Positions 6,617-64,000 of a DNA stretch of 64,000 nt are shown here, one piece after another. The stretch covers positions 1,658,541 through 1,722,540 of the forward strand of contig NZ_CP050965.1 of NCBI RefSeq assembly GCF_012273215.1, read 5' to 3'. Under the pieces are notes generated by a model. It searched no databases, was not told the origin of the DNA, and saw nothing but the letters and a program-made list of their open reading frames with translations. Position 1 is the stretch's first letter; the number at the start of each line of letters is the position of its first letter. This DNA comes from Gemella haemolysans. Its GTDB lineage: Bacteria; Bacillota; Bacilli; Staphylococcales; Gemellaceae. Both the position numbers and the translations under genes were made by a program.

Positions 6617-7186
6617 ATGGATAAAGTATTAGCTTTTAGCAAAAAATTATTAAAAGAAGTTATAGATAAAAATTCAATCGTTGTTGACGCTACTGCTGGA
6701 AATGGAAATGATACATTGTTTCTCGCGAAAACTTCAGCGAAAAAAGTTTATGCATTTGATATCCAACAATTGGCAATAGAAAATACAACAAACCTTATTA
6801 AAGAAGCAGAACTAGCTGATAAATGTGAGATTATTCTTGATTCTCATTTTGAATTTGACAAATACATAAACGAAAAAATCCGTGCTGTTGTCTTTAATCT
6901 AGGATACCTACCCAATGCTGATCACGAGATTACAACATTAGCTGAGACAACACTTGCGACTATTAAGAAATTTTTACTACATCTAGAAGTTGGTGGTAGA
7001 ATCATCATCGTCGTCTACTGGGGGCATGAGAATGGTAAGGTTGAAAAAGAAGCATTGTTAACCGAACTTCAAAACCTCGACCAAAAAGAAGCTGAAGTGC
7101 TAATTTATCAATTCATAAATCAGAAAAACAATGCGCCATTTATTATTGCGATTGAAAAAAGAAAGGAAATCTCATGCGAGAAATAG
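6617..7186 (+). CDS. mnmM: tRNA 5-methylaminomethyl-2-thiouridine methyltransferase MnmM (YtqB family)
   Basis: This is a 189-residue class I SAM-dependent methyltransferase. Motif I is VVDATAGNGNDTLFLAK (about residues 22-38), followed by VYAFDIQ (motif II), VFNLGYLPNADHEITT (motif IV region) and GGRIIIVVYWGHENG. The NLGYLP and YWGHENG segments are typical of the YtqB/MnmM family, which methylates the wobble uridine of certain tRNAs. Its length is normal. It overlaps the CYTH gene by 13 bases, indicating translational coupling. Confidence 0.88.
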   Translation: MDKVLAFSKKLLKEVIDKNSIVVDATAGNGNDTLFLAKTSAKKVYAFDIQQLAIENTTNLIKEAELADKCEIILDSHFEFDKYINEKIRAVVFNLGYLPNADHEITTLAETTLATIKKFLLHLEVGGRIIIVVYWGHENGKVEKEALLTELQNLDQKEAEVLIYQFINQKNNAPFIIAIEKRKEISCEK

Positions 7187-7746
7187 AAATAGAATTTAAA
7201 AACTTACTGACAAAAGATCAATACTACGTACTATACGAAAATTACGACCTGAATAATTCTGAAGAAATAATTAACAAAAATTTCTACTATGATGATGCAG
7301 ACGAAAGTTTCAAAAAAATTGGAGCTGCACTAAGAATCCGATATACTAACAAAAAAACGGAGATGACTCTGAAGATAAAAGGTGAAACTCAAAATGTTGA
7401 AATAAATGTACCGCTTGATGAAAGATATCCAAAAGAACCAACGGTACTACCGATTTTACCAAATGAGATTATCGTAGAACTAGAGCGAATGAACGTGAAG
7501 ATTAAAACTCCGATGCTAATACAAAAAATAGAAACATTAAGACATGAAGTAACTTTAGAAGAGGGCTTACTAGTTCTTGACAAAACAACATTTATTAACG
7601 ATATTGTCGATTATGAACTAGAATTCGAGACTAAAGATTACGAATCAGGACTAGCTGCATTTGAGAAACTATTAGAAGAAAATAATATAGATAAAAATCC
7701 AGCAAAACCAAAAATAGCAAGAGCTGTTGAGTATTCGAAACGTTAA
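7174..7746 (+). CDS. CYTH-domain protein (YjbK-like)
   Basis: This 190-residue protein begins MREIEIEFKN, the ExExK signature of the CYTH (CyaB-thiamine triphosphatase) fold. It continues with charged strand motifs suited to a metal-phosphate tunnel: ALRIRYTNKKTEMTLKIKG, LRHEVTLEEGLLVLDKT, DYELEFETKDYE and a late basic segment. Members hydrolyse inorganic triphosphate, thiamine triphosphate or similar; the substrate here cannot be assigned. It is the last gene of the three-gene operon, followed by a hairpin at 7851-7914. Confidence 0.88.
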   Translation: MREIEIEFKNLLTKDQYYVLYENYDLNNSEEIINKNFYYDDADESFKKIGAALRIRYTNKKTEMTLKIKGETQNVEINVPLDERYPKEPTVLPILPNEIIVELERMNVKIKTPMLIQKIETLRHEVTLEEGLLVLDKTTFINDIVDYELEFETKDYESGLAAFEKLLEENNIDKNPAKPKIARAVEYSKR

Positions 7747-7850: not shown

Positions 7851-7916
7851 AACCTCCATTACGAAAATTATTCAAAATAACATCTTTTGAGTAAATTCAT
7901 ACGGGAGGTTTTTATT
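7851..7916 (+). terminator. long imperfect terminator hairpin after the CYTH gene
   Basis: AACCTCC (7851-7857) pairs with GGAGGTT (7904-7910). An inner imperfect stem pairs AATTATTCAAAA with TTTTGAGTAAATT, and T-rich sequence follows. It is placed about 100 bases after the stop codon. Confidence 0.55.
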
Positions 7917-7959
7917 ATAACTTATTTTGGGAGTGAGGGGGGGACTTACACCTTGATTT

Positions 7960-8248
7960 CAAAATAGAAATTTTGACCATTTTTTCCATTTTGGATTGAT
8001 TTTATGACCTCAAAATGGAAATTTTGACTGTTTTTTCCATTTTGGATTGATTTTATGACCTCAAAATGGAAATTTTGACTGTTTTTTCCATTTTGAATTA
8101 CTTTTCTGATCTCAAAATGGAAATTTTTACTATTTTTTCCATTTTGAATTACTTTTCTGGTCTCAAAATAGAAATTTTGACTGTTTTTTCCATTTTGAAT
8201 TGGATTTTTGACCTCAAAATGGAAATTTTACCTGTTTTTTCCATTTTG
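7960..8248 (+). repeat. six tandem hairpin repeats with exact 51-bp period
   Basis: Six palindromes of 34 bases start at 7960, 8011, 8062, 8113, 8164 and 8215. Each has arms CAAAATGGAAA / TTTCCATTTTG (one-base variants) around a T-rich loop and is separated by 17-base linkers. Linkers 1-2 are identical and linkers 3-4 nearly so. The array ends directly at the TGTTATAAT promoter of the Fic gene. The open frame through copies 3-6 (8066-8260) is a by-product of a period divisible by three: in copies 1-2 the same frame meets TGA. It is not a CRISPR array, because the repeats are palindromic throughout and the linkers are not unique. Confidence 0.92.
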
Positions 8249-8252
8249 AATA

Positions 8253-8261
8253 TGTTATAAT
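8253..8261 (+). promoter_or_regulatory. extended -10 promoter of the Fic gene
   Basis: TGTTATAAT at 8253-8261 immediately follows the last hairpin repeat and lies about 32 bases before the start codon. The sixth hairpin therefore covers the -35 region. Confidence 0.55.
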
Positions 8262-8292
8262 TATTAAAAATATATTAAAGTAGGTGATTTAT

Positions 8293-9507
8293 ATGAATAA
8301 GTATTATCCTCTAGAGAAATTATTTCATATGAATTTAGATATAGAAAATGAATATAACAATAGAATCCATTCTCCTTCTAGTTCTGTTACTTCGCTTAAA
8401 ATCAATCCCTTTATTAAGGGGATAAGAAAACCAGAAGAGTATCCATTATTTATATATAACTCTGCAGAATTGATCTTAATTCTAGAGAAAATTCATACAA
8501 ATAGTGCTGAGATTATTGCGAAACAAAGTATGCTTCCAGAAGCTGCACAAGAAAAGTTCTTTAATTTGTTGCTTATCAACGAACTTCAAAGCACTAATGA
8601 AATCGAAAGTATTCATAGTTCTAAAAAAGAGATTAGCGAAGCACTTTCTAAAAAAGATAGCACTTCTCCTAACTTTAGACGTTTTGCTGGTATGGCTTCA
8701 TTATATTCTTACCTCGACAAAGAAGTACAAATACTTGAACCTAAAGATTTCAGAAAAATTTATGATGTTCTCGTTGGGGATGAGGTTTCAACAGAAAATA
8801 TTTTAGATGGAGAAGTTTTTAGAAAAGGAAGCGTAAGTATCTATGCTGGGAATGATATCATTCACCATGGTTTAGCAACTGAAGATGATATCAACAACGG
8901 ACTGGCTGATTTAATTAGGTTTATGAATTATGACAACTTACCAAAACTATATAAAATTTTTATTGGACACTATTATTTTGAATACATTCATCCATTTTAT
9001 GATGGAAATGGTCGTGTAGGTAGATACTTACTCGCCAAATCTCTTACGAGTGTAGTAGATATATTTACGGCAATTACTCTTTCATACAGTATTAATAGAA
9101 ATAAAAATAAATACTATAAGAGTTTTGAGAAAACATCACACCCTTTAAACAAAGGTGATATGACTCTATTTGTTAAAGAGAACTTAGAGCTTTTAGTTTC
9201 AGGTCAAGAACATATATTATCTTTCCTAACCGAAAATATCGAAAAAATGTTCACAGCAAGAAACTATATTAATGATAATATCGCTGACGATACACTTAAA
9301 AATATACTATTCTTACTTCTACAAAGTCATTTATTTAGTGCTAAAGATGCTTTAATAAGTCATACAGAAGTTTCTAATATTTTAGAAATTTCTACAAAAA
9401 CTCTAAATAAATATTTAGAAGATAATGAAGACAAGATTACAGTAATTAAGAAGAAACCAAAAATATATACGCTTAGTGATGACTTTTTAGCTAAGATATT
9501 TGAATAA
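8293..9507 (+). CDS. Fic-family protein (probable AMP-transferase) with winged-helix-like C-terminus
   Basis: This protein has about 404 residues. The start is placed at the ATG at 8293 because TAGGTGA precedes it at normal spacing; the GTG at 8284 overlaps that site. The catalytic loop HPFYDGNGRVGRYLL (about residue 233) matches HPFx(D/E)GNGRxxR, so the active site looks intact. Upstream, LQSTNEIESIHSS resembles the N-terminal inhibitory helix (S/T)xxxE of self-inhibited Fic proteins, with Ser replacing the usual Gly/Asn after Glu. The last 80 or so residues look like a winged helix (HTEVSNILEISTKTLNKYLE). Fic enzymes usually transfer AMP to protein hydroxyls; the target is unknown. No separate antitoxin gene is adjacent. 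Confidence 0.9.
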   Translation: MNKYYPLEKLFHMNLDIENEYNNRIHSPSSSVTSLKINPFIKGIRKPEEYPLFIYNSAELILILEKIHTNSAEIIAKQSMLPEAAQEKFFNLLLINELQSTNEIESIHSSKKEISEALSKKDSTSPNFRRFAGMASLYSYLDKEVQILEPKDFRKIYDVLVGDEVSTENILDGEVFRKGSVSIYAGNDIIHHGLATEDDINNGLADLIRFMNYDNLPKLYKIFIGHYYFEYIHPFYDGNGRVGRYLLAKSLTSVVDIFTAITLSYSINRNKNKYYKSFEKTSHPLNKGDMTLFVKENLELLVSGQEHILSFLTENIEKMFTARNYINDNIADDTLKNILFLLLQSHLFSAKDALISHTEVSNILEISTKTLNKYLEDNEDKITVIKKKPKIYTLSDDFLAKIFE

Positions 9508-43683: not shown

Positions 43684-46600
43684 CTATTTGTTTTTACGTT
43701 TTCTGATTGCTGCTGCAATTCCTGCAAGTAATACACCGAATCCTGCTGCTGCGCTAGATGTTTCGCTACCTGTGTTAGCTAGACGTTTAACTTGTGCTTT
43801 AGGAGTAGCTGCAGTTACTTTTCTGAAGATGTGACGTACATTTCCATTTTCGTCAACTACAGTTCTTACGAACTCGTATCCTTCAACTATTCCCATACCT
43901 TTAGCTCCATTTTCAGATGGTTTTAATGGGTTTCCATTTTCATCTGTCCATGTTGTAATGATGTTTGTAGCTGGGATACGTGTTGATTTCTTGAAGATGT
44001 GACGTACATTTCCGTCTTCGTCAACTACAGTTCTTACAAACTCGTATCCTTCAAATGTTCCTTTACCTTTAGCTCCATTTTCAGATGGTTTTAATGGGTT
44101 TCCATTTTCATCTGTCCATGTTGTAATTACTGCTGCTGGAGTTGGAGTTGGAGTTGTTACTTTTTCGTATACGTGCTCTGTGTCTCCATTTGGAAGAGTC
44201 TTAGTTTCTACGAATCTGTATCCTGGAATATCTTTCTTAGGTGTTGTTCCTTCTTCTGTTGGATTTCCTGGAATTTCTTTTCCTTCTTTATCCTTGAATG
44301 AAGTTGTTACTTTTTCGTATACATGTTCTGTGTCTCCATTTGGAAGTTTCTTAGTCTCTACGAATTTGTATCCTGGAATATCTTTCTTAGGTGTTGTTCC
44401 TTCTTCTGTTGGATTTCCTGGAATTTCTTTTCCTTCTTTATCCTTGAATGAAGTTGTTACTTTTTCGTATACGTGTTCTGTATCTCCGTTTGGAAGAGTC
44501 TTAGTCTCTACGAATTTGTATCCTGGAATATCTTTCTTAGGTGTTGTTCCTTCTTCTGTTGGATTTCCTGGAATTTCTTTTCCTTCTTTATCCTTGAATG
44601 AAGTTGTTACTTTTTCGTATACATGTTCTGTGTCTCCATTTGGAAGCTTCTTAGTCTCTACGAATTTGTATCCTGGGATATCTTTCTTAGGTGTTGTTCC
44701 TTCTTCTGTTGGATTTCCTGGAATTTCTTTTCCTTCTTTATCCTTGAATGAAGTCTTAACTTTTTCATAGACGTGTTCTGTATCTCCGTTTGGAAGAGTC
44801 TTAGTTTCTACGAATCTGTATCCTGGGATATCTTTCTTAGGTGTTGTTCCTTCCTCAGTTGTTGTTCCTTCGATTACGTGTCCGTTAGTATCTACGAATG
44901 ATGTAGTTACTTTTTCGTATACATATTCTGTATCTCCATTTGGAAGTTTCTTAGTTTCTACTACTTTGTATCCTGGAATGTTCTTAGGATCTTTTGTTCC
45001 TTCTTCTGTTGTTGTTCCTGGGATTGGGTTACCTTTTCTATCTACGTGCTTAGTTGTTACTGGTTCGTAGATATGTTTAGTGTTACCTTTTTCATCAGTT
45101 TCAGTCTTAACTAATTTGTATCCTGGAATAGTTTCTGATGGGTTTTTACCATCTTTAGATGGAAGTAATTCAGTTTCTTTACCGTCTTTTCCTACTACTA
45201 CAAATTTAGTGTCAGGACGAACTGTTGGTGTGTAAGAAGCTTTGATTGTCTTACCGTTCTTATCTTTACGTACAACTTCTACTGGAGTAGCTGTTCCTAC
45301 GAAGTTTGGTTCTGGAGTGAATGTCACTTTACCATCTTTGTCGATTGTGTAAGTTCCTTCTCCTGGTACTTTCTTCTCAGTTGTTCCATCAGAGAATGTT
45401 GGAGCTACTGTAGTGTCTACATCACCTTTGAATACTGGAGTATTAGATTGAGGTTGTCCTTTAGCACCTTCAGAAACTACGTTTTCTGTAGTTGTTTTAC
45501 CTAATACTGTTGGTGTGTATTTAGCTGTTACTGGTGTTCCGTTTTCGTCAACACGTTTAACTGTTACACCTTTAGCTTCTCCTACGAAGTCTGGTTCTGG
45601 AGTGAATGTTACTTTACCGTTCTTATCGATTGTGTAAGTTCCTTCTCCTGGTACTTCTTTCGTAGTTGAACCATCTTCAAATGTTGGAGCTACTGTTTCA
45701 TCGATTGGTACTGTTACAGTCTTACCGTTTACTTTAGTAGTTCCAGCTGTGAATACTGGAGTTTCTGATTGAGGTTGTCCTTTTTCACCGATTGATGTTA
45801 CGTCTTTACCTGTTGGTGTTACTGGTAATACTACTGGTGTGTATTTAGCTGTTACTGGTGTTCCGTTTTTATCAACACGTTTAACTGTTACACCTTTACC
45901 TTGACCTGTGAAGTCTTTTTCTGGAGTGAATGTTACAGTTCCGTCTGGAGCTACTGTGTAAGTTCCTTCTCCTGGTACTTCTTTCGTAGTTGATCCATCT
46001 TCGAATGTAGCTGGTTTAGTATCATCAAGTTCTACAGTTTTTTCTACACCGTTAACTGTTGTTTTACCTGCTTCAAAGGCTGGTTTACCTTTTTGAGTTG
46101 CACCTTGTACATCAGTTGTAGTTACACCTTCTGCAGTTGGTGTTACCGGTTTAACTGTTGGTGTGTATTTAGCAGTTACTTCTGTACCATTTTTGTCAGT
46201 ACGTTTAACTGTTACACCGCTAGCTTTACCTGTGAATTGTGGTTCTGGAGTGAATGTTACTACACCATTTTCAATTGTATAAGTTCCTTCTCCTGGTACT
46301 GTTACTGAATCTACTGATTCTCCTGTTTTCGGATCTACTAATTTAGCTGGTTCATCAGATAATTCTACAGTTACATCTTTACCGTTAACTGTTGTTTTAC
46401 CTGGTGTAAATACTGGAGTTCCAGTTTGTTTAGCACCTTGTACGTCTTCAGATACTACGTCATCTGATGTTGGAGTAACTGGTTTAACTGTTGGTGTATA
46501 TTTAGCTGTAGCTGGAGTTCCATTTGTATCTTTACGTTGAACTTCAACACCTTGTGCTTTACCTGTGAAGTTTGCTTCTGGTTTGAATGTTACTTCACCA

Positions 46601-61192: not shown

Positions 61193-64000
61193 TTATTTTT
61201 CTTTACGACGTCTTGATGCTGCAAGCATTCCAGCAAGTGTCGCTAATCCTAATCCTGCTAAGCCAGTGTTAGTTTCTGTTGTTCCAGTGTTAGCTAATCT
61301 CTTAACTTGAGCATTTGCTTTTGGTTGAACTGGAGCATTGTTTTGACCTGGGTTTTTAGGTGTTTCTTTTTTATCTTGTTTTGGATCTTTGTTTTGATCT
61401 TCTTTTGGTTTATTGTTTTCTGGTTTTGTTGGATCTTGATTTGGTTGTGGTTGAGGGTTTGCCACATAGTTGATCGGTGTATCTTGACCTGGGTTTGTTG
61501 GGATATCTGGTACGATGTATCCTTTAATTGGGTCTTGTGGATCAACTGGTTTAAGTGGGTTTCCATTTCCATCAACTGGAGTGTATCCTGGCACGTATGG
61601 TAATACCGGTCTATCACTTCCTGGTTTTGTTGGATCTTGTGGATCGTTTGGATATTTGATTGGACTTGTTGGTTGTCCTGGGATGTTTGTCACCCATGAT
61701 CCTAGTGGTTGGTAAACATATGTTACTGTTGAACCATCTTTTCCAATCTTACCTTTAGCTTCACCTTCTACTCGTACTAATACGTATCCTTTAATTACTT
61801 TTCCAGTTGTTGTGTACTCATCTCCAATCTTAACTTTTGTAGTTTCAACTGGGATTAAGTCTTTTCCATTTTCATCTACATATTTAACTACTAAGTTAGC
61901 TTCAGTAGCAACATAGTTAATTACTGTATCTTGACTTGGATCCGTTGGAATGTTTGGTACTACATACCCTTTTGATGGATCTGTTGGATCAACTGGTTTA
62001 AGTGGATTTCCATCTTTATCTTCTGGAGTGAATCCTGGTACATATGGTAATACTTCTGTTGGTTGCCCTGGTTTTGTTGGGTCTGTTGGATGGTTTGGAT
62101 ATTTGATTGGACTTGTTGGTTGTCCTGGAATATTTGGAATCCATGAACCTAGTTCTTTGTAAACGTATGTTGCTGTTGAACCTTCTGTTCCAATCTTACC
62201 TTTAGCATCACCTTCTACTCGTACTAATACGTATCCTTCGATGACTTTCCCTTCTGTTGTGTAGTCATCTCCTACTTTTCCTTTTGTTGTTTCTGCAGGA
62301 ACTAAGTCTTTTCCTTTTTCATCTACATATTTAACTACTAGATTAGCGTCATTTGCTTCATAGTTAATTACTGTATCTTTTCCTGGATCTGTTGGAATAT
62401 CTGGTACGATATATCCTTTAGTTGGATCTTGTGGATCTACTGGTTTAAGTGGTTGACCATTGCCGTCTTTTGGAGTATATCCCGGTACGTATGGTAATGT
62501 TTCTGTTGGTTTACCTGGTTTTGTTGGATCTTGTGGATTGTTTGGATATTTAATTGGGTTTGTTGGTTGTCCTGGAATGTTTGGAATCCATGAACCTAAT
62601 GGTTTGTAAACATATGTTACTGTTGAACCTTCTGTTCCAATCTTACCTTTAGCATCACCTTCTACACGCACTAATACGTATCCGTCAATTACTTTTCCAG
62701 TTGTTGTGTACTCATCTCCTACTTTACCTTTTGTTGTTTCTGCTGGAGCTAAGTCTTTTCCATTTTCATCTACATATTTAACTACTAGGTTAGCTTTGTT
62801 TGCTACGTAGCTGATTGGTGTATCTTCACCTGGATTTGTCGGAATATCTGGTACCATGTATCCTTTTGATGGATCTTTCGGATCTACTGGTTTAAGTGGA
62901 TTTCCATCTTTATCTTCTGGAGTATATCCTGGTACATATGGTAATGTTTCTGTTGGTTTACCTGGTTTTGTTGGATCTGTTGGATCGTTTGGATATTTGA
63001 TTGGACTTGTTGGTTGTCCTGGGATATTTGGAATCCATGATCCGATTGGTTTGTATGTTACTACTTCTGTAGTGTTTTCTGAGTTTGCAGTCACTTTTGT
63101 AGCTGGTACTGTTACTTTATCAGCTAAGAATCCTTTAACTACTGGTGATTTAACTTCAGCTAAATCTTGTTCTGGTGTCCAGTCTCCGTATGTAACTTCT
63201 CCTGTAACTAAGTTTACTTTTGCTTCACGTGTGAATTTAGCTTCTTGTGTTACTGTTTTTGGAGTTCCGTCTTCATTTAATACTGGAGTTCCATCTGCGT
63301 ATACGTATGTAATTGTACGTGTTACTGTTTTGTTTAGATCTTTTTCTTCTAATCCAGCTGGATATTTAGGTCCTTCTGGGTTATTTGGATCTACTGGAGT
63401 TCCTGGTGTTTTCGGTTGATCTGGTGTTACTGTAACTTCTTTAGCTTTAAGTGTTACTTTGAACTCTTGATCAGTGTCTTTATCTTTATCGAATTTTCCA
63501 CCTTCTGGGTATGTATTAGATACTAATTCATATCCTTTGTTTTCAAGTTCTTTGATCTTAGCTTTTACTTCAGCTTCTTTTGTTAATGGTGCATCTGAAT
63601 CACCTTCTTCTGTAATTCCTTCTACTCCTGGAATTGGGTTTCCTTTTTCATCTACGAATGTTGTTTTAGCTTTTTGAGTATCTTTTACGTAGTTGATTGG
63701 AGTGTCTTGACTTGGATCATTTGGAATATCTGGAATGATATATCCTTTTGTTGGATCTTGCGGATCTACTGGTTTAAGTGGTTGTTCATTTCCATCTTTT
63801 GGAGTCATACCTGGTACGTATGGTAATACTGGTTTATCAGTTCCTGGTTTTGTTGGGTTATCTTTATCGTTTGGATATTTAATTGGATTTGTTGGTTGTC
63901 CTGGGATATTTGGCACCCATGATCCTAGTGGTGTGTATGTTACTACTTCTTTGATGTCTTCTGAATTACCTGTTACGTTCACTGCTGCAACACTTGCTTT
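61193..64000 (-). CDS. sortase-anchored MucBP-repeat adhesin (5' end beyond window)
   Basis: 936 codons are visible and the frame stays open to the right edge. The protein alternates Pro-rich segments with beta domains. The first kind is LGSWIPNIPGQPTNPIKYPN followed by LPYVPGYTP and KPVDPQDPTKGY, six copies. The second is MucBP-type NLVVKYVDENGKDL then YTTTGKVIDGYVLVRVEGDA, three copies. One longer block (NKTVTRTITYVYADGTPVLN, VTYGDWTPEQDL) resembles a Mub-type mucin-binding domain. After an Asn/Lys/Pro/Gln linker it ends LANTG, a hydrophobic helix and SRRRKEK. It is likely a mucus or host-glycan adhesin. Confidence 0.92.
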   Translation of the reverse strand, partial: KASVAAVNVTGNSEDIKEVVTYTPLGSWVPNIPGQPTNPIKYPNDKDNPTKPGTDKPVLPYVPGMTPKDGNEQPLKPVDPQDPTKGYIIPDIPNDPSQDTPINYVKDTQKAKTTFVDEKGNPIPGVEGITEEGDSDAPLTKEAEVKAKIKELENKGYELVSNTYPEGGKFDKDKDTDQEFKVTLKAKEVTVTPDQPKTPGTPVDPNNPEGPKYPAGLEEKDLNKTVTRTITYVYADGTPVLNEDGTPKTVTQEAKFTREAKVNLVTGEVTYGDWTPEQDLAEVKSPVVKGFLADKVTVPATKVTANSENTTEVVTYKPIGSWIPNIPGQPTSPIKYPNDPTDPTKPGKPTETLPYVPGYTPEDKDGNPLKPVDPKDPSKGYMVPDIPTNPGEDTPISYVANKANLVVKYVDENGKDLAPAETTKGKVGDEYTTTGKVIDGYVLVRVEGDAKGKIGTEGSTVTYVYKPLGSWIPNIPGQPTNPIKYPNNPQDPTKPGKPTETLPYVPGYTPKDGNGQPLKPVDPQDPTKGYIVPDIPTDPGKDTVINYEANDANLVVKYVDEKGKDLVPAETTKGKVGDDYTTEGKVIEGYVLVRVEGDAKGKIGTEGSTATYVYKELGSWIPNIPGQPTSPIKYPNHPTDPTKPGQPTEVLPYVPGFTPEDKDGNPLKPVDPTDPSKGYVVPNIPTDPSQDTVINYVATEANLVVKYVDENGKDLIPVETTKVKIGDEYTTTGKVIKGYVLVRVEGEAKGKIGKDGSTVTYVYQPLGSWVTNIPGQPTSPIKYPNDPQDPTKPGSDRPVLPYVPGYTPVDGNGNPLKPVDPQDPIKGYIVPDIPTNPGQDTPINYVANPQPQPNQDPTKPENNKPKEDQNKDPKQDKKETPKNPGQNNAPVQPKANAQVKRLANTGTTETNTGLAGLGLATLAGMLAASRRRKEK
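61440..63960 (-). repeat. alternating Pro-rich and MucBP coding repeats
   Basis: The Pro-rich module (GSW..NIPGQPT.PIKYPN) recurs at about 63900, 63020, 62590, 62120 and 61690. Spacing is about 430-470 bases where one MucBP domain lies between copies and about 880 where the Mub-like block intervenes. DNA identity between copies is high, so recombination and copy-number change are likely. Confidence 0.8.

Follow-up and report, generated by a model that had tools for sequence, protein, structure and literature searches.

CccR of Yersinia pseudotuberculosis, in which a Fic domain is combined with a C-terminal helix-turn-helix (HTH), represses its own promoter and binds an inverted repeat at the -35/-10 elements, with dimerization being required (PMC9755527). 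Its operator is a single 46-bp element, AGATAATCAT-N26-ATGATAATCT (10-N26-10), whereas the locus reported here carries tandem, phased units of the 12-N12-12 type (PMC9755527). Both have a Fic protein with a C-terminal HTH and an inverted repeat at its own promoter, a likeness by description and not by sequence comparison, and CccR is a T6SS effector, unlike the present protein. CbFic2 of Coxiella burnetii shares the DUF4172-Fic-winged HTH (wHTH) layout, and DNA bound by its HTH raises its activity; however, the assays used random DNA, and a specific operator is not known (PMC10628234). For the SoFic anti-phage systems, the accessible part of PMC12249575 describes a 47-aa antitoxin and does not mention an operator array, which is the element found here. 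The array bears on how single-protein Fic defence toxins are kept silent and switched on.

The array lies in the window, by which we mean the whole 64,000-nucleotide stretch of Gemella haemolysans DNA that was analyzed, from a genome of 2.08 Mb in a single contig. It consists of six near-identical inverted repeats on the + strand, with spacings of 51, 51, 51, 51, and 51 bp and zero indels. Repeat search and alignment of the units place them at 7959..7994 (unit 1, arms TCAAAATAGAAA-N12-TTTCCATTTTGG), 8010..8045 (unit 2), 8061..8096 (unit 3), 8112..8147 (unit 4), 8163..8198 (unit 5), and 8214..8249 (unit 6). Each unit is a 36-bp palindrome (TCAAAATGGAAA-N12-TTTCCATTTTGA; a 12-bp arm, a 12-bp center, and a 12-bp arm) followed by a 15-bp linker, and the palindrome core is TGGAAA-N12-TTTCCA. 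TRF returned a period of 51 with 5.7 copies, 90% matches, and 0% indels, and in the repeat search and TRF together the period-51 repeat spans 7954/7959 to 8251. The initial annotation had placed six copies at 7960, 8011, 8062, 8113, 8164, and 8215 without an indel, and both analyses reproduced these positions, where the copies start with CAAAAT, and the spacing exactly. Its 34-base palindromes are real inverted repeats, although their length is better given as 36 bp (7959-7994 and so on).

Matches to TCAAAATGGAAA with at most 1 mismatch numbered 16 in the window, compared with 1.5 expected in shuffles, and 12 of the 16 are arms of the six-unit array. The whole genome contains 6 matches to the palindrome, the six-unit array included, so it is present in few copies. 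The array is real and non-random, and it is most likely regulatory. A 64-aa open frame inside it (8066-8260) results from the 51-bp (17-codon) period and is not a gene.

The array is located between a terminator-like inverted repeat that ends the upstream CYTH-domain gene operon (ACCTCC ... GGAGGT plus a T-run, 7852..7916, +, by eye) and the extended -10 of fic (TGTTATAAT, 8253..8261, +). Unit 6 ends 3 bp before this -10, so the -35 position falls inside unit 6, and the offset of the -10 from the last palindrome is identical in 5 Gemella species. The claim that the last palindrome covers the -35 region of an extended -10 promoter therefore holds, with the promoter being a reading by eye. A simple promoter scan of the window did not list the fic promoter because a good -35 is absent, which fits a promoter of the extended -10 type. 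A ribosome-binding site, AGGTGA (8282..8287, +, by eye), precedes the ATG start codon at 8293. The terminator scan reported none at 7852..7916, where the loop of the inverted repeat is too long for the scan, and neither the scan nor inspection by eye found a terminator between unit 6 and fic.

The fic gene (8293..9507, +) encodes a SoFic-like protein of 404 aa with a Fic domain, the domain of AMP-transferring enzymes, and a C-terminal wHTH, based on PF02661, PADLOC SoFic, and fold matches. Pfam assigned PF02661 with an E value of 7e-15 and DUF4172 marginally. Most of the AlphaFold model (pLDDT 91, pTM 0.89) aligns with SoFic (3eqx/3zcn) and with CbFic2 (8cil, the second-best fold match), and the top solved folds include Fic+HTH proteins. 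The C-terminal wHTH (9289..9504, +) was delimited by the secondary structure of the model (H333-348, H357-364, H368-377, E382-387, and E390-394) and by alignment to Fic+wHTH structures. The catalytic Fic motif HPFx(D/E)GNGR is present as HPFYDGNGR (HPFYDGNGRVGR, 8989..9024, +) and is invariant across the aligned homologues. The N-terminal inhibitory-helix motif (S/T)xxxE(G/N) is part of the Fic class definition, and the class scheme is given in PMC12249575. By alignment, this motif position in the window reads TNEIES (8593..8610, +), with the last residue off the pattern, and most homologues have TNEIEG; judged from sequence, the Fic domain is probably of the class-II type. The protein resembles the anti-phage SoFic systems (PMC12249575) in its match to the PADLOC SoFic model (E 1.8e-36) and in the overall fold including the C-terminal domain. 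However, it scores 53.9 bits against the NCBIfam SoFic equivalog, far under the cut-off of 550 bits. Because it matches the PADLOC model yet does not reach the equivalog cut-off, we classify it, on these profile scores, as a protein related to SoFic, its catalytic motif being intact, and not as SoFic itself.

Within the genus, 5 Gemella species have both the array and fic, and 4 have neither. The four further species with the array have it before an orthologous fic (62-98% protein identity), in 4, 4, 3, and ~3 units; the ~3-unit array adjoins an assembly gap, and one of its units passed the strict comparison. In one species (G004), the fic+array pair sits at a chromosomal place other than the methylase/CYTH neighborhood of the remaining species, so array and gene move together. 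The palindromes are kept across the species while the linkers drift, and the right arm is nearly invariant (columns 22-34 identical, 18 units). Adjacent units have linkers in common, which indicates local duplication of units, and the number of units differs between species. The suggestion of very recent expansion is thus borne out in part, namely as local duplication with a species-dependent unit number.

More distant fic homologues were collected by protein search (~29-41% protein identity; Bacilli, Clostridia, Actinobacteria, phages, and satellites). Plasmid and phage DNA searched with the array sequence gave no match, and the kinship is visible only via the protein. We also searched the genomes of 85,000 species for pairs of TGGAA/TTTTCCAT palindromes separated by a variable distance; 14 stretches matched, among which those of Gemella, Jeotgalicoccus, and Rothia are arrays. 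The actinobacterium Rothia aerolata has three TGGAAA-type units with a period of 51 directly before a fic homologue. The matches in Alphaproteobacteria, Aminicenantes, Elusimicrobia, and Hydrogenothermaceae apparently reflect chance or conserved coding sequence, and the broad pattern TGGAAN{10,18}TTTTCCA mostly yielded chance matches in coding DNA, the true sites being N12 palindromes.

Many fic homologues are preceded by AT-rich palindromes with different arms, a good number of them in tandem. A period of 51 was found before fic in the satellite phage Javan337 (4 units, arm TTGACAAAATAGCGTTTTTGTCAA), in L175 (2 units, arm TTGTCAAAAACGACTTTTTTTGACAA), in L173 (3 units), in G201, and in G043, a member of the same order as Gemella (2 units, over the fic promoter). 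The region upstream of TP901-1 ORF56, a fic homologue, has a period of 40 (arm TTTGATAAAATATCAAA), as do L201 (3 units) and L183, and Ligilactobacillus salivarius has a period of 41. L183 also carries an Rfam match to FuFi-1 RNA at 446-683 (82.6 bits), ~1.3 kb upstream of its fic homologue.

The periods were evaluated lag by lag in 64 non-redundant fic upstream regions against dinucleotide shuffles. Values of z>3.5 occurred at lag 51 in 10 regions, at 52 in 5, at 40 in 4, and at 41 in 2, with every other lag in at most 2. Tandem similarity at lag 40/41/51/52 was present in 19/64 fic regions, compared with 1/138 controls (Fisher p = 6e-10, indicative only, since the lags were named after the data had been seen and the controls are partly coding). 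The control regions lie upstream of non-fic genes at these loci and were set by coordinates. Among the 12 regions with the highest z, 11 are at lag 40, 41, 51, or 52, and the exception, L179, is at 63. Palindromes in the last 130 bp before the start were found in 22/64 fic regions and 22/166 controls (p = 6e-4). A significant tandem array is lacking in about 70% of the fic homologues, and a significant palindrome in about half. The two periods, 51 and 40, are about one helical turn apart, which argues for a function at the level of double-stranded DNA with the sites on one face, and the recurrence of the period with differing site sequences suggests evenly phased binding sites. It had been proposed that the spacing, about five helical turns, is selected for a dimeric regulator of fic; the recurrence of 51/52 or 40/41 before distant homologues with other arms supports this idea, and the interpretation as a whole is supported in part.

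We consider it somewhat better than an even chance that the array is a phased multi-site operator bound by the wHTH of Fic itself, through which fic would be autoregulated. This reading is by analogy: with autorepression by CccR, which likewise has an inverted repeat at its own promoter, and DNA-stimulated activity in CbFic2, a multi-site operator for Fic is the simplest account of the array. In its favor are also the joint presence or absence of array and fic in Gemella, the Rothia array, the recurring periods, the enrichment of palindromes before fic, and the wHTH of the protein; the many homologues lacking an array or palindrome, the sites away from fic, and the different half-site spacing of the CccR operator speak against it. 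A Fic dimer would bind each palindrome as double-stranded DNA via the C-terminal wHTH. Because 51 bp is roughly five turns, and the 40 bp of other members roughly four, the sites would lie on about the same helix face, and neighboring dimers could bind cooperatively. Occupation of the promoter-proximal site would block the -35/-10 elements and repress fic, and this negative feedback would keep the toxin level low. The extra sites may sharpen or deepen repression, or they may store Fic protein. We infer the identity of the binder, the cooperativity, the repression, and the keeping of a defence toxin silent. In a crude test with automated half-sites, operator similarity did not follow wHTH similarity once overall protein similarity was accounted for (partial Mantel r 0.02, p 0.40), which leaves room for a different binder.

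TGGAAA-N12-TTTCCA sites also occur elsewhere in fic-bearing Gemella genomes, single or paired, in prophages and islands. In Gemella prophages, holin and endolysin genes have such a pair, 51 bp apart, between them (L076 ~6905-6979; IMG/VR L100 and L101). Island-like elements have the order XRE regulator, cargo, palindrome pair or single site, and tyrosine integrase, with the sites at L077 7947-8021, L080 7675-7749, L081 7872-7946, L079 7154-7228, and L078 7324-7347; the pairs are at 51 bp, and one island has a single site instead. By sight, the cargo is either an Abi_2-like gene or a short Fic gene, different from fic and second to it. No fic remnants worth reporting turned up next to the island pairs, and no such sites were found before related integrases in the few genomes of fic-less Gemella species. 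Jeotgalicoccus meleagridis (G058), in whose genome no Fic gene was detectable, has three dispersed TGGAA-N13-TTTTCCA arrays, similar in core to the Gemella sites, with a period of 51 (L082 7300-7490, L086 4580-4840, and L091 ~7350-7440); two of the three end in similar sequence, and one lies between convergent genes. Arrays elsewhere without a promoter relation, which the initial annotation had named as contrary evidence, are thus found to some extent, as the Gemella prophage and island sites and the arrays of fic-less J. meleagridis. The off-fic sites could be relics, modules of a cargo slot, or targets of a factor acting in trans. They offer a possible link between the activity of resident mobile elements and toxin expression. 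It seems a long shot that the array is a sensor, with sites on replicating prophages or islands titrating Fic off its own promoter and releasing the toxin, or that the elements are themselves regulated by Fic.

The TGGAA/51-bp architecture in J. meleagridis, the sites at Gemella prophage and island loci, and the absence of operator-wHTH covariation would suit a phased operator for another dimeric regulator, a host or mobile-element repressor, in place of Fic. We judge this unlikely, though worth keeping in mind: the sequence of the sites varies among homologues, yet the sites accompany fic in different genera and phyla and on plasmids, phages, and satellites, which is most simply explained by a binder that moves along with fic, and the fic-less Gemella species also lack the array. 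A module that marks the cargo slot of satellites or islands, for recombination or as a promoter reused by various cargo, would account for the Gemella island pairs between cargo and integrase. It would also account for a satellite, L240, in which a single Javan337-type palindrome (~10156, reversed strand) precedes a gene other than fic (by sight DUF3800-like, FNFDESGS...) that occupies the same XRE-cargo-integrase slot. However, arrays also precede fic where chromosomal genes flank it, as in the window and in Rothia, and site sequences vary between hosts, and we give this reading very little credence.

In type III toxin-antitoxin loci, tandem repeats precede the toxin gene. The array has the same layout directly before fic, and its sense strand has a predicted fold of -75.7 kcal/mol (z -6.1), as expected of any inverted-repeat array, so it could act as RNA, either as a tandem-hairpin antitoxin RNA of type III-like kind or as a leader that sequesters or regulates Fic. 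This is improbable, since unit 6 is upstream of the fic -10, so that units 1-6 are not part of the fic transcript, there is no terminator between the array and fic, and it is not obvious why an array acting as RNA would have a period quantised by about one helical turn. In the Gemella arms, A:C mismatches on the sense strand outnumber G:U (11 vs 2), although these are few independent events and an antisense RNA is possible. Moreover, type III toxins are endoribonucleases of the ToxN/TenpN/CptN fold, whereas the toxin here has the Fic fold. Rfam at the gathering threshold gave no match in the window or at the arrays of 10 related loci, and sub-threshold matches over the array were attributed to chance. 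Neutral tandem expansion, or a REP-like mobile repeat that came to lie near fic by chance, would explain the varying unit number, the alike neighboring linkers, and the dispersed copies in Gemella and Jeotgalicoccus; REP/BIME elements also are clustered palindromic units, some of them dispersed. Unlike these, the array has few copies (the 6 genome matches), keeps a strict 51-bp phase, is linked to fic, and is AT-rich. As independent homologues with unrelated arms have equal spacing at the equal place, and arms are kept while linkers drift, this origin is quite doubtful.

Read as a multi-site operator of Fic, the array would add to Fic autoregulation a form with phased tandem operators that recurs in several phyla; in the open literature searched, with incomplete coverage, such arrays were not described. 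An array of phased operators retained in different phyla would be a concrete control element for Fic toxins, and it points to the C-terminal wHTH of these Fic proteins as a true sequence-specific regulator. The ~40- and ~51-bp periods also provide a clean handle on helical-phase cooperativity.

The window contains further long tandem repeats, with periods of 183, 150/450, 324, and 447 bp at 1-533, 44152-45130, 45502-46300, and 61458-63055, which are apparently coding and surface-protein-like.
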